Source: a virus
DNA: 22,049 nt
Reading direction: 5' to 3' (one strand)
Virus record (IMG/VR): IMGVR_UViG_3300021963_000730
Coordinates: 1 to 22,049 of that record
Each line of letters begins with the position of its first letter. Positions within the stretch are counted from its first letter, which is position 1. The notes below the pieces were generated by a model. That model did no database searches. It worked only from the letters and a program-made list of their open reading frames with translations, and was not told the origin of the DNA. The position numbers and the translations under genes were made by a program. Positions 1,018 through 22,049 of the stretch are shown in pieces.

Positions 1018-1047
1018 ATTATATGTTAACGTCGTCACTCTTGTCAA
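1018..1047 (-). promoter_or_regulatory. Consensus sigma-70 promoter for the tRNA-Met unit
   Basis: Minus strand: TTGACA (1047-1042), 18-base spacer, TATAAT (1023-1018), both hexamers perfect. The predicted start near 1011 is two bases before the mature tRNA 5' end at 1009. The promoter lies inside the 3' coding end of the 1019-1270 gene, and the stop TAA of that gene is part of the TATAAT box. Confidence 0.78.
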
Positions 1048-1270
1048 TACTTGTTTCTACAGCTTGTTGCACATATTCAGAAAAATGTTTTCTGATACTA
1101 CCACTTGGCCTAGAACCAATTTGCTTCCATATCCTAGTATACTCTAAAACATTTGCATATGTGGTAGGACACATCATTGTCCCATTAAATTCTCGTAGAA
1201 CCGTTGGAAGTGGAACATGCTTTCCACAACATTTGCATTCTTTTGCTCTTTCTTGATATATATTTGTCAT
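1019..1270 (-). CDS. Small Cys-rich protein downstream of terL
   Basis: An 83-residue basic protein. Cys residues cluster at the N terminus (ECKCCGKH near residues 11-18, then MMCPTTY near 32-38), suggesting a small zinc-binding knuckle; the rest is helical. I do not recognise the family. The start ATG overlaps the terL stop in an ATGA junction, so it is probably translated by coupling to terL. Such position suggests a packaging-linked or DNA-binding role, but this is only inferred. The overlapping frame on the other strand is taken as a shadow. Confidence 0.7.
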   Translation of the reverse strand: MTNIYQERAKECKCCGKHVPLPTVLREFNGTMMCPTTYANVLEYTRIWKQIGSRPSGSIRKHFSEYVQQAVETSIDKSDDVNI

Positions 1271-3063
1271 ATTGTCATCATTCTTTCTATTGCGTCTTGC
1301 AGGTCGTTCGGCATTGATTTAGGAGGCCTAATAAGATTAAACGATTGTTCTTTAGATTCTCCAAAATCTGCTTCATAACTCATTGATTCATAAGTGTGAA
1401 TATTAATTTCTCTATCTGTTGGGGCAAAAGATTTAGATATTGCATTGTATACTGATCCGCAAACAGCATCTGAAAGGTCCTTTGAGCCCTTTCGAGGGTG
1501 GTCTACCTTGTCCCGCATAATTCTTAGCTGAAGCAATTCATTAATTAATAGTGGTATGTGAGGACCTTTAATTCTTTCCTCTAATACAACCATTGCCATA
1601 TCGTCATAATGTTTTTTAGCGACAGACAGAATCTCTGTATTGATGCCATATTGTTTTAGTTGTTGCATCATATCATGAGAGTTCCATCTGTCAAAAGTAC
1701 AAAGCTTTATATTAAATCCAGCGCTCTTTAAAGAAAGAATGTAGTCTTTTACTTCTGTAAAGTCAACAGACTTATCTGCAGTAGGAGTCCAATACATAAC
1801 GGCATCAACTTCAACAACTGGTGCTGGCTGAGAGTATTCATTTGTAACCTTAATATTAACCCAGTCACGTACGTGTGCAAGTGATACCGCACAATGGTCA
1901 TGTTTTTGAGCTAGGTCAACGTGTATAAAATAATCAGTATTTTCTTGAGGTTTAAACCAAGGCTCTAGTCTTCCAAATTTATCTACAGCAATTCCAGTAT
2001 TGCTAAAAGCCTTTTCAACTTTTTCTCTAGACTTAAAGAATGCATCTACAGCCTCTGGGGGCATGCAGGCAAATCTTCCTAGAGCGTCTAGCTGGTTTCT
2101 GTAGAAGTCAACCTTAAAGTCTTCTATTTTTTTTGTTGGGTTTACTTCCCAGGTTGGTCTTTTAAGTGCATATGTTTTAGGATACTTGTATGACTTTATA
2201 TGGTCTTCTTCCCACTCAACTGTAACCTCATTGCCTTCCATTCCATCTGGAAGGTCCTCGTCCATTTTTAAAACTTTTGTTCTAATAACAGTTTCTTTTT
2301 CTGCAATTACAGACTCATAAAATTTTTGAATAGGATCATTTTTAAATCTAGGGAAAGAAAGAAGAATAAGCTTTCCACAATCTGGAAAACGAGACATTAC
2401 TGAAGCACGGTACATGTCGTATAGGGCATCTGCTGTTTTTGCCTGATCGTGCCCAGTTGTGCTTTCAATTGCAAAACCTGAAATCTCATCAAGGATGACA
2501 ACAATAACGTTATAGCCTTCCCAAGCTTCTCTTTCTGAGTGACCAGAGTGAACTGTAATAGCTTTATCAAATTTCATTTCAGATGCTTTTGACTCATACT
2601 TTCCAGCAAACCATGGGGACCTGTCAATTCTTGTCTTGAAACCTTTAAAGAAAACATTGTTTGCCTGTTGTGCGTTAATAGCAATATTTAAAATATCAAT
2701 TGAATCTCCAGGAGGCTTTCCATAATATGATGCTGGATCCTTTAAACATAAAAGAAGATAAACTACGTATGCTGTAGCAATAGTAGACGAGTAGTCTTTT
2801 CCAGAACCCTTACCTAATTGTGCAACAACCTCATTGCATGTTTGCTTAAATATTCTAACACCCTCTTCTTCACCAAATAGCTTTTTGAGTGTTGATTCTT
2901 TATAAATTTGAGAAGATTTTTCAATCAGAGTATATTGGTGTTCTGATAAAACTGGTAGGCCAAGGTAGGATGGGCTAGTGACAAATGTTCTTAGATCTAC
3001 TGGGCGCTCTTCAAACTCTTCGCCGTCAAGCATATCAATAAGATCGCTAAAATCAAATGACAT
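1267..3063 (-). CDS. terL: Terminase large subunit (packaging ATPase/nuclease)
   Basis: The motor that pumps phage DNA into the prohead and cuts it. The N-terminal ATPase has a Walker A-type loop GKGSGKD (residues 84-90) and Walker B VIVVILDE (Asp192, Glu193). The C-terminal RNase H-fold nuclease has its acidic residues at Asp383 (FIHVDLAQ), Asp458 (CTFDRW) and Asp529/Asp532 (KDLSDAV). At 598 residues it is slightly longer than many TerL proteins, with an acidic N-terminal extension of about 30 residues. No intein or frameshift is seen. It overlaps terS by 11 bases and the next gene by four, forming one operon driven by the promoter at 3599-3627. The strand order terS-terL matches common phage layout. 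Confidence 0.93.
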   Translation of the reverse strand: MSFDFSDLIDMLDGEEFEERPVDLRTFVTSPSYLGLPVLSEHQYTLIEKSSQIYKESTLKKLFGEEEGVRIFKQTCNEVVAQLGKGSGKDYSSTIATAYVVYLLLCLKDPASYYGKPPGDSIDILNIAINAQQANNVFFKGFKTRIDRSPWFAGKYESKASEMKFDKAITVHSGHSEREAWEGYNVIVVILDEISGFAIESTTGHDQAKTADALYDMYRASVMSRFPDCGKLILLSFPRFKNDPIQKFYESVIAEKETVIRTKVLKMDEDLPDGMEGNEVTVEWEEDHIKSYKYPKTYALKRPTWEVNPTKKIEDFKVDFYRNQLDALGRFACMPPEAVDAFFKSREKVEKAFSNTGIAVDKFGRLEPWFKPQENTDYFIHVDLAQKHDHCAVSLAHVRDWVNIKVTNEYSQPAPVVEVDAVMYWTPTADKSVDFTEVKDYILSLKSAGFNIKLCTFDRWNSHDMMQQLKQYGINTEILSVAKKHYDDMAMVVLEERIKGPHIPLLINELLQLRIMRDKVDHPRKGSKDLSDAVCGSVYNAISKSFAPTDREINIHTYESMSYEADFGESKEQSFNLIRPPKSMPNDLQDAIERMMTI

Positions 3064-3592
3064 CTTGCTCCGATACTATTTGTACAGGCTCAACAATTCC
3101 AGTTATTTGTGAAAGCCGACGTGCAACATCCATCTTACAATTAGGACATGAAGCAGTAACTTCTTTTAATATTCCAACTAATATTTCTTGCTTACGCTCT
3201 GTGTCTGCAATTTGTCCAGCAAGTTCTGCATTATCTAAGAGGCCAACCTGTTGCAGCATGGCAATTCTTTTTGTTTCAATATCTGCAATAAGCTTTAGGG
3301 CTCCAGCTTTAACGTTTAGCTGACCTTGGGTATCTGCATCTTCAACAGTTTTCCATGCCTCTTTGATAAGCATTGCGTAATGCTGGTCTGCACCTGATAC
3401 GGCTTCTTTAGCCCGCTCTCTGGCGTTCTGATCATTATGGACAACCGACTTCCATTCACCAATTAACTCAACAACATCTGCTCTCTTGAGGCCAGTAAGT
3501 GTTGCAATTTGGGTAGGGTTGTTACCCTTAAGTAGTTCTGAGACTACCTTATTCATGCGGTCAAAATGATCCGCTAACTCTATATCAGACAT
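3053..3592 (-). CDS. terS: Terminase small subunit (DNA-recognition protein)
   Basis: A 179-residue protein directly upstream of terL, probably the small subunit that binds the packaging start site and stimulates TerL. Residues 18-50 form a helix-turn-helix (LLKGNNPTQIATLTGLKRADVV). Residues 60-145 are long charged helices, suited to the oligomerisation core of a TerS ring. A CPNC pair sits near residue 153, with no second pair, so zinc binding within one chain is doubtful. Start ATG 3592 lies six bases from a TATACT box and has no Shine-Dalgarno, so its mRNA is probably leaderless. The assignment rests on context and HTH plus helical architecture, not on a family signature. Confidence 0.78.
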   Translation of the reverse strand: MSDIELADHFDRMNKVVSELLKGNNPTQIATLTGLKRADVVELIGEWKSVVHNDQNARERAKEAVSGADQHYAMLIKEAWKTVEDADTQGQLNVKAGALKLIADIETKRIAMLQQVGLLDNAELAGQIADTERKQEILVGILKEVTASCPNCKMDVARRLSQITGIVEPVQIVSEQDVI

Positions 3593-3598
3593 TACTCT

Positions 3599-3627
3599 AG
3601 TATACTTTTAGTCGACTAAAATGTCAA
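3599..3627 (-). promoter_or_regulatory. Consensus promoter of terS-terL, leaderless geometry
   Basis: Minus strand: TTGACA (3627-3622), 17-base spacer, TATACT (3604-3599), then only AGAGTA before the terS ATG at 3592. Transcription would start at or next to the A of the ATG. The TGA stop of the upstream gene (3624-3626) is contained in the TTGACA box. Confidence 0.8.
3606..3621. promoter_or_regulatory. 16-bp perfect palindrome between -35 and -10, candidate operator
   Basis: TTTTAGTCGACTAAAA fills all but one base of the promoter spacer. A repressor bound here would block RNA polymerase directly. No copy of the whole palindrome was noticed at the other promoters in the window. The palindrome is directly seen; regulator binding is inferred. 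Confidence 0.5.
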
Positions 3628-3953
3628 TTAGATTTTGCTTTAGCAATCTTATATAGAATTAAATATCCAATCAAATCATCAATATCGTTATCTCCAGCGT
3701 AACCTTGATTATTTATAACTCTATTTAGTTTGTCATCTATTCTTACCTTTAATTGCTCTGTTGCATCCGCCCTAGAGAATATTCTTGCAGGATTTAAGGC
3801 AGAGTCTCCATAAGAAATATTCTTTTCAATTAATAGATGAGCTATCTCATGGCATGCTCCCCAAATTTTGCCACCAGATGGCGCACCAACTGACTTCAAA
3901 TAAAGATCGCTACAGTTAAAATTTTCAACATCTTCAAATACTGCTTTTAACAT
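3624..3953 (-). CDS. DUF1599/Nmad1-like protein (nucleotide-modification-associated family)
   Basis: A 109-residue protein. The central motif EKNISYGDSALNP (residues 43-55), then RIDDKLNR (71-78) and IDDLIGYLILYKI (91-103) matches the pattern of the all-alpha family known as DUF1599 or nucleotide modification associated domain 1: KN-x-YG, R-x-DK-x-x-R, D-DL-x-Y. Such proteins occur in many phages, often near nucleotide or DNA-metabolism genes, and resemble MazG-type pyrophosphohydrolases in having helical acidic motifs. The substrate is unknown. The ATG at 3953 has TAGGAG five bases upstream, overlapping the end of the methyltransferase gene. Its stop lies inside the -35 box of the terS promoter. 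Confidence 0.65.
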   Translation of the reverse strand: MLKAVFEDVENFNCSDLYLKSVGAPSGGKIWGACHEIAHLLIEKNISYGDSALNPARIFSRADATEQLKVRIDDKLNRVINNQGYAGDNDIDDLIGYLILYKIAKAKSN

Positions 3954-3954
3954 A

Positions 3955-4404
3955 CTATCTCCTAATCAGTTCAAATCGTAGGTCATTATTTTCTCTACCT
4001 ACAAATGTCACCTGAAATAACGGAACGTTATCCCAGTAGTACCTTCCAAACAATTCATACAATTCTTTTTCAGGATCAAAATAGTCAAATGTTTCATGGT
4101 GAAAAACTTTCTTATGCGTTGGATCACGATAAGATAATTCGTTGTCCCATGCTGGAAGTCTTAAAGTAAGTTTTCCGCCGACCTTAAGTATCCTATGACA
4201 TTCAGACAGCCAATCTACAATTTCTGTATTTAGATGCTCAAACACATCAATTGCATAGACTTCATCCCACTCCTCATTTTCACAGGGCCAAGGAATAACT
4301 TCTAGGTCCCAGGCTACATCTATCCATTCGGAATGCTTTATTCTATCATGATGCACGGCACCTTGTAAAGGGACTGATCCAGACCCAAGCTCTAGTCTAT
4401 TCAT
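3955..4404 (-). CDS. SAM-dependent methyltransferase, class I fold
   Basis: A 149-residue single-domain methyltransferase. Motif I LELGSGS (residues 4-10) binds SAM; the acidic strand end and WDEVYAIDVFEHL (near 46-58) match motifs II-III; CHRILKVGGKLTLRLPA (near 69-85) is the typical motif after the beta-4 strand in the methyltransferase-11 group. There is no DNA target motif such as DPPY, so an N6-adenine or cytosine DNA methylase is unlikely; small-molecule, RNA or protein substrates are possible. It is short and starts right at motif I, lacking the usual N-terminal helix. Its ATG overlaps the stop of the HTH gene (ATGA). No good Shine-Dalgarno is seen, so coupling is likely. Confidence 0.8.
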   Translation of the reverse strand: MNRLELGSGSVPLQGAVHHDRIKHSEWIDVAWDLEVIPWPCENEEWDEVYAIDVFEHLNTEIVDWLSECHRILKVGGKLTLRLPAWDNELSYRDPTHKKVFHHETFDYFDPEKELYELFGRYYWDNVPLFQVTFVGRENNDLRFELIRR

Positions 4405-4547
4405 CGCTTTTTAATTAGTCCAAACTTAGTTAGGTATCTCTGTATAGTCATAGCAGAGGTATTACATTCAATAGCAATCTCAGTTATGCTCTTTTTTTGA
4501 ATAACGTATCTTCTATACAACCACTCTTCACTTTGATAGTATTTCAT
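4401..4547 (-). CDS. 48-residue helix-turn-helix protein
   Basis: A small basic protein whose whole length is a homeodomain-like HTH. The first helix EEWLYRRYVIQKK (residues 7-19) is followed by SITEIAIECNTSAMTIQRYL (20-39) and ends KFGLIKKR. This matches the common phage or resolvase-type pattern of SI-x-EIA-x-x-C-x-x-S-x-x-TI-x-x-x-L-x-K-x-GI. It starts in an ATGA junction with the RuvC-like gene (TGA 4546-4544) and stops in an ATGA junction with the methyltransferase, with GGAAAG before its ATG. The double coupling and full-length HTH make it a real gene although it is short. It could be a DNA-binding partner of its neighbours or a transcription regulator; neither is shown. Confidence 0.75.
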   Translation of the reverse strand: MKYYQSEEWLYRRYVIQKKSITEIAIECNTSAMTIQRYLTKFGLIKKR

Positions 4548-6157: not shown

Positions 6158-6492
6158 TAAACGCTATACCTCGCTGAATACTTCAATGCATCTACTAGTC
6201 TGTCTAAAGCTTCTTTAACTGAGTAATAAATGTTCTTTTTATTGTTGTTTACCGTTCCAGCCTTATCTTTGGCAATAGTTGAGTAAAATGAAGCTAAAAT
6301 GGCAAGTTTGGCACTGATTGCCTGCAATTCAATAATCAGCATAGGAGCCTTTGCAGATGGCACCTCTGGATTCATTATTAGCTTTACCAAGATCGCTAGT
6401 GCTCTATCCAACTGATCGTCAGACATAAACTCATGCATATCATTAAACTCTGTTATCTCGCTTATAAGCTCTAAAGTATTCTTATCACTCAT
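6157..6492 (-). CDS. Helical protein of unknown function in the recombination operon
   Basis: A 111-residue protein predicted to be almost wholly alpha-helical, with an acidic N-terminal half and a basic C-terminal half. No catalytic motif, Cys cluster, signal peptide or membrane segment stands out; the section LIIELQAISAKLAILASFYSTIA is amphipathic rather than clearly membrane-spanning. It overlaps the upstream gene by eight bases and its TAA overlaps the Cas4-like start by one. The position between two candidate nucleases suggests a partner or accessory role in recombination, but the sequence does not show this. Confidence 0.7.
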   Translation of the reverse strand: MSDKNTLELISEITEFNDMHEFMSDDQLDRALAILVKLIMNPEVPSAKAPMLIIELQAISAKLAILASFYSTIAKDKAGTVNNNKKNIYYSVKEALDRLVDALKYSARYSV

Positions 6493-16095: not shown

Positions 16096-16318
16096 CTTCT
16101 TCCTCTTCCTCTACTCCAAAACCCAAAGCAGGTCTGCGCTTGGGCATAAACTCTTCTGACAATCTATCTGCAACTTGCATCCATGCTGCTGCTACTGTAA
16201 TCAATCCTTCAATATCTTTTTTCTTATCTGCATGAACAGATGCAAGATCAAGGTTTACTGCTGCACGTTCTAGTGCAGTCTCTTCATTTAAGAAATCAAA
16301 CTCTTCTTCTTCTGTCAT
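16001..16318 (-). CDS. Acidic helical protein of unknown function
   Basis: 105 residues from the ATG at 16318, chosen over a TTG at 16330 because GGAAAG precedes it and it gives an ATGA junction with the upstream stop. A helical half (ETALERAAVNLDLASVHADKK, LITVAAAWMQVADRLSEEF) is followed by an acidic linker VEEEEEDD and a basic tail KKLGELREHQNRYWR that is dual-coding with the next gene. Likely a small adaptor or binding protein; not recognised. Confidence 0.63.
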   Translation of the reverse strand: MTEEEEFDFLNEETALERAAVNLDLASVHADKKKDIEGLITVAAAWMQVADRLSEEFMPKRRPALGFGVEEEEEDDRIDTNKGKGGPPVHKKLGELREHQNRYWR

Positions 16319-16803
16319 TCTGCTTTCCAAACTGGCACGAATTCTCCTGATGTTGTCTTAGTATACAATATAACGTTGTGTTTCATCAAGGCCTTTAACT
16401 CATTTTTTGTAGGCAATTTTTCTATTTCCCTGCCTGCCGACAAAAGATATTCGTGAAGCTCAATCACATCGTCCTCGCTAAACATATATTGAGACCAAGC
16501 TTTGCTTTCTGAATTACCAATAGGATATACCTTTTGAGGGGCTCTGATTTTTCCCTCTAAGATATAATCTTCAATAGTAACTTTATGCCTTCCAATCATT
16601 ATAGAAACTTGAGACATTGTGTATGCATTTTGCATATGCTTACGTACGTCCGAGTCTGGATAAAGAACTCTTGCCTTATCTTGATATGACCAAGCAATTA
16701 GTTGATCTTTTACTCTAGAGGACTTTAAAACTTTATGTAGTTTTCCGTTTAAGAAGAAATACCGAAAGCTTTTTTGTGACCTGTTTCTCTTTGATCTAGC
16801 CAT
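16315..16803 (-). CDS. MerR/excisionase-like DNA-binding protein
   Basis: 162 residues. A very basic N terminus (MARSKRNRSQKSFRY) precedes a winged-HTH of MerR type: YTMSQVSIMIGRHKVTIEDYILEGKI at residues 61-86 is the Y-T-x-x-x-x-A-x-x-x-G-x-x-x-x-T-I helix pair with a wing (PQKVYPIG), and YMFSEDDVIELHEYL at 106-120 matches the W/Y-x-F-x-x-x-D-V-x-x-L helix that follows. It may bind DNA as a regulator or origin-binding protein. ATG 16803 overlaps the upstream gene by 55 bases, and a weak GGAAA is close to it. It precedes the helicase-primase genes, consistent with replication initiation. Confidence 0.72.
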   Translation of the reverse strand: MARSKRNRSQKSFRYFFLNGKLHKVLKSSRVKDQLIAWSYQDKARVLYPDSDVRKHMQNAYTMSQVSIMIGRHKVTIEDYILEGKIRAPQKVYPIGNSESKAWSQYMFSEDDVIELHEYLLSAGREIEKLPTKNELKALMKHNVILYTKTTSGEFVPVWKAE

Positions 16804-19003: not shown

Positions 19004-22000
19004 TTACGCTGGGTTAATATTTGATCCATTTTCTGTATAAGCACCTTGAGCAGAGGTTCCTACAGTATATCTACTTACTGAATAATTTGAATCATAAGAA
19101 ACTCCTTGAACTCCAAACCTGTATGAGGTTCCAGTAAGAGAAGTGTATATATCTGATTTTGGAGTTTCGCTAAACAAACTATGGGTTGCCGTAGCTCCGC
19201 TAGAAGTATTTCTAATTCTAGTATACCATGCTGTAAAAGATCCACCAGATCTTGTGCTAGTCCATGTTCCAGTTATTTGTCTTGTTGCAGTTTTTGAAGC
19301 TGAAACAGTTCCAATTGTAAATGTTGCTGGCGTTGCTGCAGCTGATGTTGTTAAGCTGTAATTTGCAGATGCAGTATTTCCAGTAGAAGATGTTACTGTT
19401 ACTGTTCCAGTATATGTTGTTGATGCAGAAAGTCCAGTTTTTGAAATAGATGTTCCAGTTGTTCCAGTTCCGCTAAATGTTCCATCTGAGCTATAACTTG
19501 ATTGGTTGGTTGATGTCCAGTTAATTGTTCCTTGAGCAGCTGTAACCCCAGTATTTCCAGACATTGTTATTGTTGGAATTACAGAGTTGGCTGTCCATTT
19601 TGCCCAAAGAGTTACATTTGCAGTAAGCGTTATTGCTGCATTTGATGCATAATTTGTTCCAGTCCCAGATGAATTTGTATTCCATCCAGCAAAAGTAGAT
19701 CCAGATTTGGTAGGGGCGGTTCCAGAAACTGTTGTAGCCCATCCAGAACCACTATCTGTTCCACTTGTTTGTGATGGGGCCCCAGTTCCAGTATTGGCAT
19801 CATAAGATAAAAATCTTGTTGCAGAAAGAGTGTAAGACGAACCAGAACTCCAATTACTGAGCGATGTTGATGGAGCAGTAGTGCCAGTAGTTCCTGTTGT
19901 TAATGCAGATCTTGCATACACGTACCATGTTCCAAGAGAACCAGGCCCAGTTGTATCCTGAATTGTAGTTGTTGTGCTTGAGCCATCGGGAGTTACTCCA
20001 ACTCCAGGAGCTGTAGCAGAACTCCACCAATAAATTTGATAAGCTGGTCCTCCACCTGAAACGTTAACAGTTAAAGTTCCTCCTGGAGAAGATTGGGATG
20101 GGGTTCCAACAATTGCTGGAGTTGTCAATACATTATTTGCAAGGTCTGTTGTAGTCTCAGTTCCACCAACTAATGCAGATGTTCCAGTGCTATTTGTTGC
20201 AGAAGCAAATACCCTATATCTTTTTCTTCCACTTGATTGTGAATCTGTAAACTCAGAAGGAGGTATTGTATATGTTGCAGAGGTAACATTTCCAAAATCT
20301 TGAACTAAAGTTTCTGAAGTAATAACCCCTGGAGTTCCTCTGTATAGTCTTAAATTATAAGATGCTGGACTATAATTCCATGTACCAACTCCAAGATTTA
20401 GTGTTTGACCAACAGTTGGGGTTCCAGAAAGTGTTGGGTTTGTATTAATTGTAGGGGCTGGAAGGTATACTCCAACAGCACTTGATGTTTTGGCACTTGC
20501 ATATGGAGTCCAAGTTGTTCCATCTGCAGAAGCTGATACAAAATAGTATTGTGCGCCTCTTCCAAATGGGGTGTAACTATTTCTATCTGGATCTGATGGG
20601 CCCCAAGCCCATGAACCTGAAGTTTCTGTAATTGTTGAAAAGTTAACAAATTTTTCTTCATCATAATATGTTGCTGGTGAACCTGGACTTACTCCATTGC
20701 TATTCCAATAAATTCTATATACAGTTGCATTTGTAGCACCAGACCAAGAAATTGTTACTGTGTCTGTGCTTCCGTTGTTTGCTGCAGTTACAGATGTTGG
20801 ATATGTTGCTGCTATTGCATTTGTTTTTATATTTGAGCTAACACTTGGAGTTCCGCTATATGATACTCCAGTTGAATATTCATATATCGAAGTCACTCTT
20901 ACATAATATGTTGTATTTGGTTGAGTGCCATCTGCTGACGTGAAGCTGGCAGTTCCATTTATCCCAGATACTGTTTTTGTAGCAATAGTATTATACGGAG
21001 AAAGGTATTGAACTAAAGCAACTTCATGTTTATTTGCTGAACCTCCTCCAACAATTGAAACTCCTATGTCGTAAGATCCATTTGTTCCAAGGTAAGGGTT
21101 TCCAATAGTTGCTGTTGGATTATCATTTCCACTTAGCACTTTTGAACCATAAGCAGTAAGTGATCCTTCTGCTCCTGTTTTATTGCTAGACAAGTAAGGA
21201 CGCAGATAAGAGGTGTAGCTTCTTGTAGTAGAATTTGCTCCAGATAAAGCAATTACCCCAGCAGTATTACTATTTATATTTATATATCCCTGTATTGAGT
21301 CGGTTGCCATAAAGCTATCATACTCAAGCCATGCATTCATTGAGGCTGTATTATTTCCAGAGGTAAAAAATACGTGACCAGTATTTGCAGCAAAAGATTT
21401 TACTACAACATTTGTCGGTGCTCCTGGCCGTGCAGAGCTTGTTATGTTCAAAGAGTTACTCGATGAACTAGTCTCTCCGTCATAATTTACTGCCCTTACT
21501 TGAACAGTATAATATGTTCCTTCTGCAACATATATCTTTGCACCATTTACTTGGTTTATGTATCCAGTTCCAAGCGTCCCGTATGTTCCCGTGCTAATTT
21601 GAGAAAAAGATCCACCATTTAATGAGTACTCATAATATTTTTCTGCATTGCTTCCAAAAGAGGACTGATAGATATTAAAAGATATATAGGTGCCAAAATA
21701 GTCTGCTGTTGTTGCTATACTAGAAATAGATGGGGAACTTGGGGCAACTCCTGGCGGATACAATGTATTTGTAGATATGATTGATCCATCTGTAGTTCCG
21801 CCAAACTTTGCCCTGGCAGTAATTTCATAATACTGATAATCTGCAACATTTGCTGTTGCTGTTAAAACTCCACCTGATCTACCAGACTCCATAGTGTAGG
21901 GAGAATCGTTATATGTTAATAGTGTTGTATAATAAGATACTGGGAAGTAATAGTCTGTACTTCCATTCCATGGGCCATACCCACGAATTTGTAACTCATA

Positions 22001-22049
22001 TCTGTCTGCCGATGCAGATTGCCCTATATCAACTGCAACTGTTCTCTTC
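19004..22049 (-). CDS. Large tail/fibre protein with fibronectin- and Ig-like repeats, C-terminal part
   Basis: The frame is open from 22048 to the stop at 19004, so at least 1014 residues are present and the N terminus lies outside; the ATG at 21892 is internal (52 sense codons precede it, with YELQIRGYGPW in them). It is built of beta-sandwich modules: repeated P-x-AP or T-xx-V-N-x-x strands, fibronectin-III-like Y-x-V-R-x-x sections (YTVQVRAVNYDG, YYVRVTSIYE), an Ig-like LSGTPTVGQTLNLGVGTW module, and a List-Bact or InlB B-repeat-like module at about 19590-19813 (YDANTG ... GWNT ... LWAKW). Thr/Ser/Gly-rich throughout; no enzyme motif. Probably an extracellular receptor-binding or tail-surface protein. 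Its DNA is rich in simple Thr/Ser codon runs. Confidence 0.82.
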   Translation of the reverse strand, partial: KRTVAVDIGQSASADRYELQIRGYGPWNGSTDYYFPVSYYTTLLTYNDSPYTMESGRSGGVLTATANVADYQYYEITARAKFGGTTDGSIISTNTLYPPGVAPSSPSISSIATTADYFGTYISFNIYQSSFGSNAEKYYEYSLNGGSFSQISTGTYGTLGTGYINQVNGAKIYVAEGTYYTVQVRAVNYDGETSSSSNSLNITSSARPGAPTNVVVKSFAANTGHVFFTSGNNTASMNAWLEYDSFMATDSIQGYININSNTAGVIALSGANSTTRSYTSYLRPYLSSNKTGAEGSLTAYGSKVLSGNDNPTATIGNPYLGTNGSYDIGVSIVGGGSANKHEVALVQYLSPYNTIATKTVSGINGTASFTSADGTQPNTTYYVRVTSIYEYSTGVSYSGTPSVSSNIKTNAIAATYPTSVTAANNGSTDTVTISWSGATNATVYRIYWNSNGVSPGSPATYYDEEKFVNFSTITETSGSWAWGPSDPDRNSYTPFGRGAQYYFVSASADGTTWTPYASAKTSSAVGVYLPAPTINTNPTLSGTPTVGQTLNLGVGTWNYSPASYNLRLYRGTPGVITSETLVQDFGNVTSATYTIPPSEFTDSQSSGRKRYRVFASATNSTGTSALVGGTETTTDLANNVLTTPAIVGTPSQSSPGGTLTVNVSGGGPAYQIYWWSSATAPGVGVTPDGSSTTTTIQDTTGPGSLGTWYVYARSALTTGTTGTTAPSTSLSNWSSGSSYTLSATRFLSYDANTGTGAPSQTSGTDSGSGWATTVSGTAPTKSGSTFAGWNTNSSGTGTNYASNAAITLTANVTLWAKWTANSVIPTITMSGNTGVTAAQGTINWTSTNQSSYSSDGTFSGTGTTGTSISKTGLSASTTYTGTVTVTSSTGNTASANYSLTTSAAATPATFTIGTVSASKTATRQITGTWTSTRSGGSFTAWYTRIRNTSSGATATHSLFSETPKSDIYTSLTGTSYRFGVQGVSYDSNYSVSRYTVGTSAQGAYTENGSNINPA

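Follow-up and report, generated by a model that had tools for sequence, protein, structure and literature searches.

The small terminase gene (terS) of this phage is preceded by a promoter whose spacer is filled almost completely by a palindrome. The arrangement raises the question of whether the palindrome is the binding site of a regulatory protein, which genes such a protein would govern and how the gene behind the promoter is translated. These points were addressed by computational comparison of the window (the whole stretch of 22,049 nucleotides that was analysed) with related phage records.

The terS promoter and its phage

In front of terS, the minus strand reads TTGACA TTTTAGTCGACTAAAAG TATACT AGAGTA ATG. 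The two hexamers, their 17-bp spacing, the six bases between -10 and ATG and the 16-bp palindrome are exactly as the earlier note had described them. The elements of the locus (window coordinates) are:

3606..3621, no strand: putative operator TTTTAGTCGACTAAAA, a 16-bp dyad and the window's sole exact copy, with the consensus T-YYY-AGT-YR-ACT-RRR-A
3622..3627, minus strand: -35 hexamer TTGACA, overlapping the TGA stop codon of the upstream gene and degenerate in relatives
3599..3604, minus strand: -10 hexamer TATACT, nearly invariant (TATA(A/C)T or TACAAT in relatives)
3593..3598, minus strand: AGAGTA, the six bases from -10 to ATG, with transcription predicted to start at 3592
3053..3592, minus strand: terS, small terminase (phrog_9507), assigned by homology and gene order, with a predicted leaderless start
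1267..3063, minus strand: terL, large terminase, downstream of terS in the same direction
3624..3953, minus strand: upstream gene, phrog_1485, encoding 109 aa and ending with its stop codon inside the -35 hexamer

The perfect palindrome takes up 16 of the 17 spacer bases and is the only one of at least 16 bp in the 22-kb window. Per shuffled window, chance gave 0.48 perfect palindromes of at least 16 bp, and promoters scoring 11/12 or better numbered 0.85. A promoter of this quality whose spacer held a palindrome of as little as 12 bp turned up in 0/300 shuffles. Elsewhere in the window, a perfect TTGACA-18-TATAAT (1018-1047, minus strand) ends 8 bases before tRNA-Met (935-1009) and is probably the promoter of this tRNA.

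The terS gene directly precedes terL, and its Streptomyces phage homologues bear the annotation helix-turn-helix (HTH) protein or terminase small subunit. Gene order and terminases match Streptomyces phages of the Stanwilliamsviridae (about 45-54% identity for TerS and about 60-63% for TerL). The phage, represented here by a 22-kb fragment, thus appears to be a relative of this family and is not called a member; no operator promoter was present at terS in the four Stanwilliamsviridae Streptomyces phages that were read. IMG/VR contigs with a GC content of about 0.36-0.39 form a large clade, to which the window belongs. Genes for WhiB, which is treated as an actinophage marker (PMC6802176, PMC10202952), scored over the Pfam cut-off in 8/13 related records. 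Judging from the relatives and the WhiB genes, the host is likely an actinobacterium, and the low GC content together with the WhiB literature (PMC6802176, PMC10202952) suggests a freshwater origin of the contigs. At the far end of the window (19004-22048, minus strand), a long repetitive open frame runs off the fragment; by eye, it resembles a tail or surface protein in which Fn3-like and FAGWNT-type repeats occur.

A leaderless start of terS without a Shine-Dalgarno sequence, as put forward in the earlier note, is strongly supported by the sequence comparison. Anti-Shine-Dalgarno pairing upstream of terS amounts to -1.0 kcal/mol, as against -4 to -13 for most other genes of the window, and the start codon is backed by N-terminal homology nearly up to the first residue. 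The distance from -10 to ATG is 6-8 bases in 72/73 operator promoters of relatives, and the start is therefore predicted to be leaderless or nearly so, with a leader of 1-2 bases possible where the distance is 7-8 bases. Leaderless-type starts were also seen at several other genes of these phages, with a simple count only modestly above control.

Conservation and displacement of the palindrome

Homologues were gathered by TerS similarity, with the promoter disregarded, and dereplicated to 97. The operator followed by a -10 was present in 73 of these 97 terS upstream regions, and the idea that a regulatory protein binds at the terS promoter gains strong support from its retention in 73 dereplicated promoters. 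The 24 regions without it comprised 14 of Streptomyces type, 9 in operator-less clades of the TerS tree (several of whose terS genes have a Shine-Dalgarno-led start) and L104, in which a gene is inserted before terS; the parallel record G009 has the same promoter before that inserted gene. In G009 (6434-6463), L095, L099, L104 and L589, a cupin-like gene (MTTENRPWGYY...) separates terS from the operator promoter and is the one that starts leaderless in its place.

Seven of the 16 operator positions are invariant in the 73 relatives, mostly as symmetric pairs (the outer T and A, and AGT and AC of the core). The remaining positions obey pyrimidine/purine symmetry, except for two C at core position 8, and the consensus is matched exactly by 71/73. 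Four-fold degenerate positions in the terS genes of these relatives have a mean pairwise identity of 0.43, and none reaches 0.95. By this measure, the dyad symmetry of the putative operator is conserved beyond neutral expectation.

The promoter beneath it is not fixed. The gap between the core AGTYRACT and the -10 is 5 bases in 49 cases, 6 in 1, 7 in 13 and 9 in 10. Promoters with a gap of 5 have a -35-like hexamer (mean 4.2/6 matches) and a TG-extended -10 in 0/49, those with gaps of 7 or 9 have a TG-extended -10 in 23/23 and have lost the -35, and the gap classes are scattered over the TerS tree with many changes. Nor does coding constraint explain the core, since the stop codon of the upstream gene moves relative to it, sitting 9, 8, 7 or 1 bases before its start or at its end. 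Because it is kept while the gap and the promoter type vary, the palindrome is not a contact of RNA polymerase and behaves as an independent operator, which in these alignments is conserved for its own sake, independently of -10 and -35.

Further copies and candidate regulators

Although the window holds a single copy, further copies of the palindrome are present in related genomes; their absence there was part of the refuting condition set in the earlier note. A full-architecture scan (dyad, -10 and a start codon 5-9 bases on) of 15 operator-clade records returned 20 sites, and in each record the terS site (in G009, the site at the inserted gene) was among them; several compared contigs are incomplete, and the absence of further sites in such a record may be only apparent. 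Two of the five sites outside terS concern a 23-aa reading frame of doubtful reality that two near-identical records share. The scan gave 0 sites in three operator-less records and, with a reversed core, 0 sites in 1.53 Mb, while a loose three-mismatch scan of whole records did no better than control. Scans of the collection, which demanded only the core and the right half and whose counts still contain near-copies, yielded many more copies at genes for small CxxC-motif proteins (MKCDFCENPKYVERINAKG...), short membrane-like proteins and glycosyltransferase-like proteins, most of them having gaps of 10-13 and a -10 of the extended type. Within the AGTTGACT set outside terS, the left half had not been searched for and was enriched nonetheless, with T in 26/36 and Y in 35/36 distinct flanks, those of related contigs not being fully independent. 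At least eight genomes with TerS or its operator have the site in front of further leaderless genes as well, and a second operator promoter stands alongside the terS operator in G004, G024, G002, G003, G026, G031, G032 and G033. Most likely, further leaderless genes form a small regulon under its control. The control of late packaging genes suggested earlier is too narrow as a description, as the same site also occurs at small leaderless and glycosyltransferase-like genes.

Other promoters and dyads came up in these searches. The tail-gene promoter AAATGGTATAAT-N6-8-ATG (class 2) was considered as a second operator site and rejected, since an unbiased sample and the dyad consensus showed most copies to be without operator; part of its resemblance to the operator is a stop codon. 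This leaderless extended -10 promoter is conserved before a minor structural gene in 80 relatives, mostly without operator, such as L150 at about 12172 (G004 52172) and L231-L310. At a small membrane-like gene, whose upstream leader could form a hairpin, a possible TTG start that follows a Shine-Dalgarno sequence coincides in part with the dyad-like TAGTTGACTAG (G006 26912, G003 2698, G024 84804, G001 95922, G023 111678, G018 78726, G008 10358 and G021 50228). Between scaffold-like and RlpA-like genes, an exact copy of the 16-mer follows a terminator-like hairpin in L008, L011, L015, L017, L018, L020, L023 and L027, which form an unrelated, podovirus-like-looking phage group.

Two genes of the window were considered as candidate regulators:

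4401..4547, minus strand: 48-aa HTH protein with weak Sigma70_r4-like and HTH matches
16315..16803, minus strand: MerR-like HTH protein (phrog_9440), whose relatives give a weak HTH_17/MerR match and whose Coruscant homologue is annotated as MerR-like

The 48-aa protein was found in 14/14 operator-clade records compared, and its recognition helix differs in the two operator-less freshwater-type records. The MerR-like gene is also found in relatives without the operator; the record comparison revealed no regulator gene exclusive to the operator clade, both of these proteins being non-exclusive. A search of these phages for an XRE-type repressor found none, and a PDB profile search with the MerR-like protein gave nothing useful. 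The type of the 48-aa protein associates with the type of operator, although neighbouring genes do equally well or better in nearest-neighbour concordance; in the available sequences the association is inseparable from linkage. For this reason, the 48-aa protein was not accepted as the established cognate regulator and is kept as a lead. By eye, operator-clade phages also encode an Hsp20-like (small heat-shock) protein (G005 81901-82329, L126), which is absent from three operator-less records compared.

Proposed mechanism and comparison with known systems

The palindrome is probably an operator for a dimeric, probably phage-encoded HTH protein, placed inside a strong promoter of the housekeeping-sigma type that would drive terS-terL and the following genes. 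The bound protein would most likely repress by steric exclusion of RNA polymerase; upon its release, transcription would begin with the A of the ATG or a neighbouring base, terS would be translated leaderless, and the small leaderless regulon would respond to the same protein. The predicted start lies about 21 to 30 bp beyond the dyad centre, which shifts in steps other than helical turns, over strong promoters. Repression is the best inference from this pattern, as an activator would need a fixed geometry. That a protein binds, that it represses and does not activate, when it acts and which protein it is are all inferred. Tentatively, one small HTH protein (perhaps the 48-aa one, 0.8 kb upstream of terS) could co-repress the packaging operon and scattered tiny leaderless genes, the promoters beneath the operator having switched repeatedly between -35 and extended -10; this would be an undescribed circuit in freshwater actinophages without a recognisable cI-like repressor.

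The same dyad could instead be an activator site, at which a MerR-like or other phage factor contacts RNA polymerase and switches terS on late in infection. Its place within the spacer is that seen in promoters under MerR control, a MerR-like gene is present in the phage and the -35 hexamers of many relatives' terS promoters are poor. However, the spacer is 17 bp instead of 19-20 bp, the distance between dyad and -10 ranges over 5-13 bp by amounts other than whole helical turns, the promoters are near consensus or have an extended -10 and need no activator, and the MerR-like gene occurs in operator-less relatives too, all of which makes activation unlikely. That the phage exploits a host regulator, with no protein of its own, would agree with the lack of a phage regulator exclusive to the operator clade; it is nevertheless regarded as rather unlikely, as exact-pattern searches of 84,980 prokaryote genomes with narrow patterns gave 0 and 9 matches, none of them in a genome named as an actinobacterium and the 9 coming from unrelated organisms.

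Small terminases belong to the HTH proteins, and terS often contains or adjoins the packaging site. Such general precedent would allow the palindrome to be a recognition site of the terminase (pac or cos). This is very improbable, given that unrelated leaderless genes carry the same dyad, that the HTH of TerS is similar in clades without the site, and that in long contigs terS sits at a great distance from the (unmapped) ends. A chance palindrome within an ordinary promoter is in turn hardly credible: a 16-bp palindrome is expected about 0.5 times per window, but conservation far above that of synonymous sites, dyad symmetry, a sliding position and recurrence at unrelated genes all speak against it.

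Reading the palindrome as a repressor operator is of interest because transcription control is little known in the abundant phages of freshwater actinobacteria. The operator consensus, several target genes and a short list of candidate regulators make the question directly testable. The relatives provide a natural series in which the operator is fixed while the promoter beneath changes type, as well as a case of packaging genes apparently expressed from leaderless messages. A literature search for such an operator found no description.

Leaderless promoters of actinobacteria, of which the mycobacterial case is an example (PMC7148126), resemble those at terS in having the -10 six to eight bases before the ATG and no Shine-Dalgarno sequence. 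The terS-type promoters differ in carrying a conserved operator, and their start is predicted from sequence. Promoters of the MerR family have an inverted repeat in a spacer of 19-20 bp. The inverted repeat in the spacer and the MerR-like HTH protein encoded by the phage are shared features, whereas the spacer is 17 bp here and the position of the dyad relative to the -10 varies. Operators of lambda- or Tet-type repressors sit between or over the -35 and -10. Unlike in those systems, the cognate repressor is a postulated one here, and the genes behind the site are packaging genes and leaderless genes of phages in which no cI-like repressor is recognised; as in those systems, a dyad of about 16 bp lies over the core promoter, tolerates changes of position and occurs in several copies per genome, with a strong promoter beneath.
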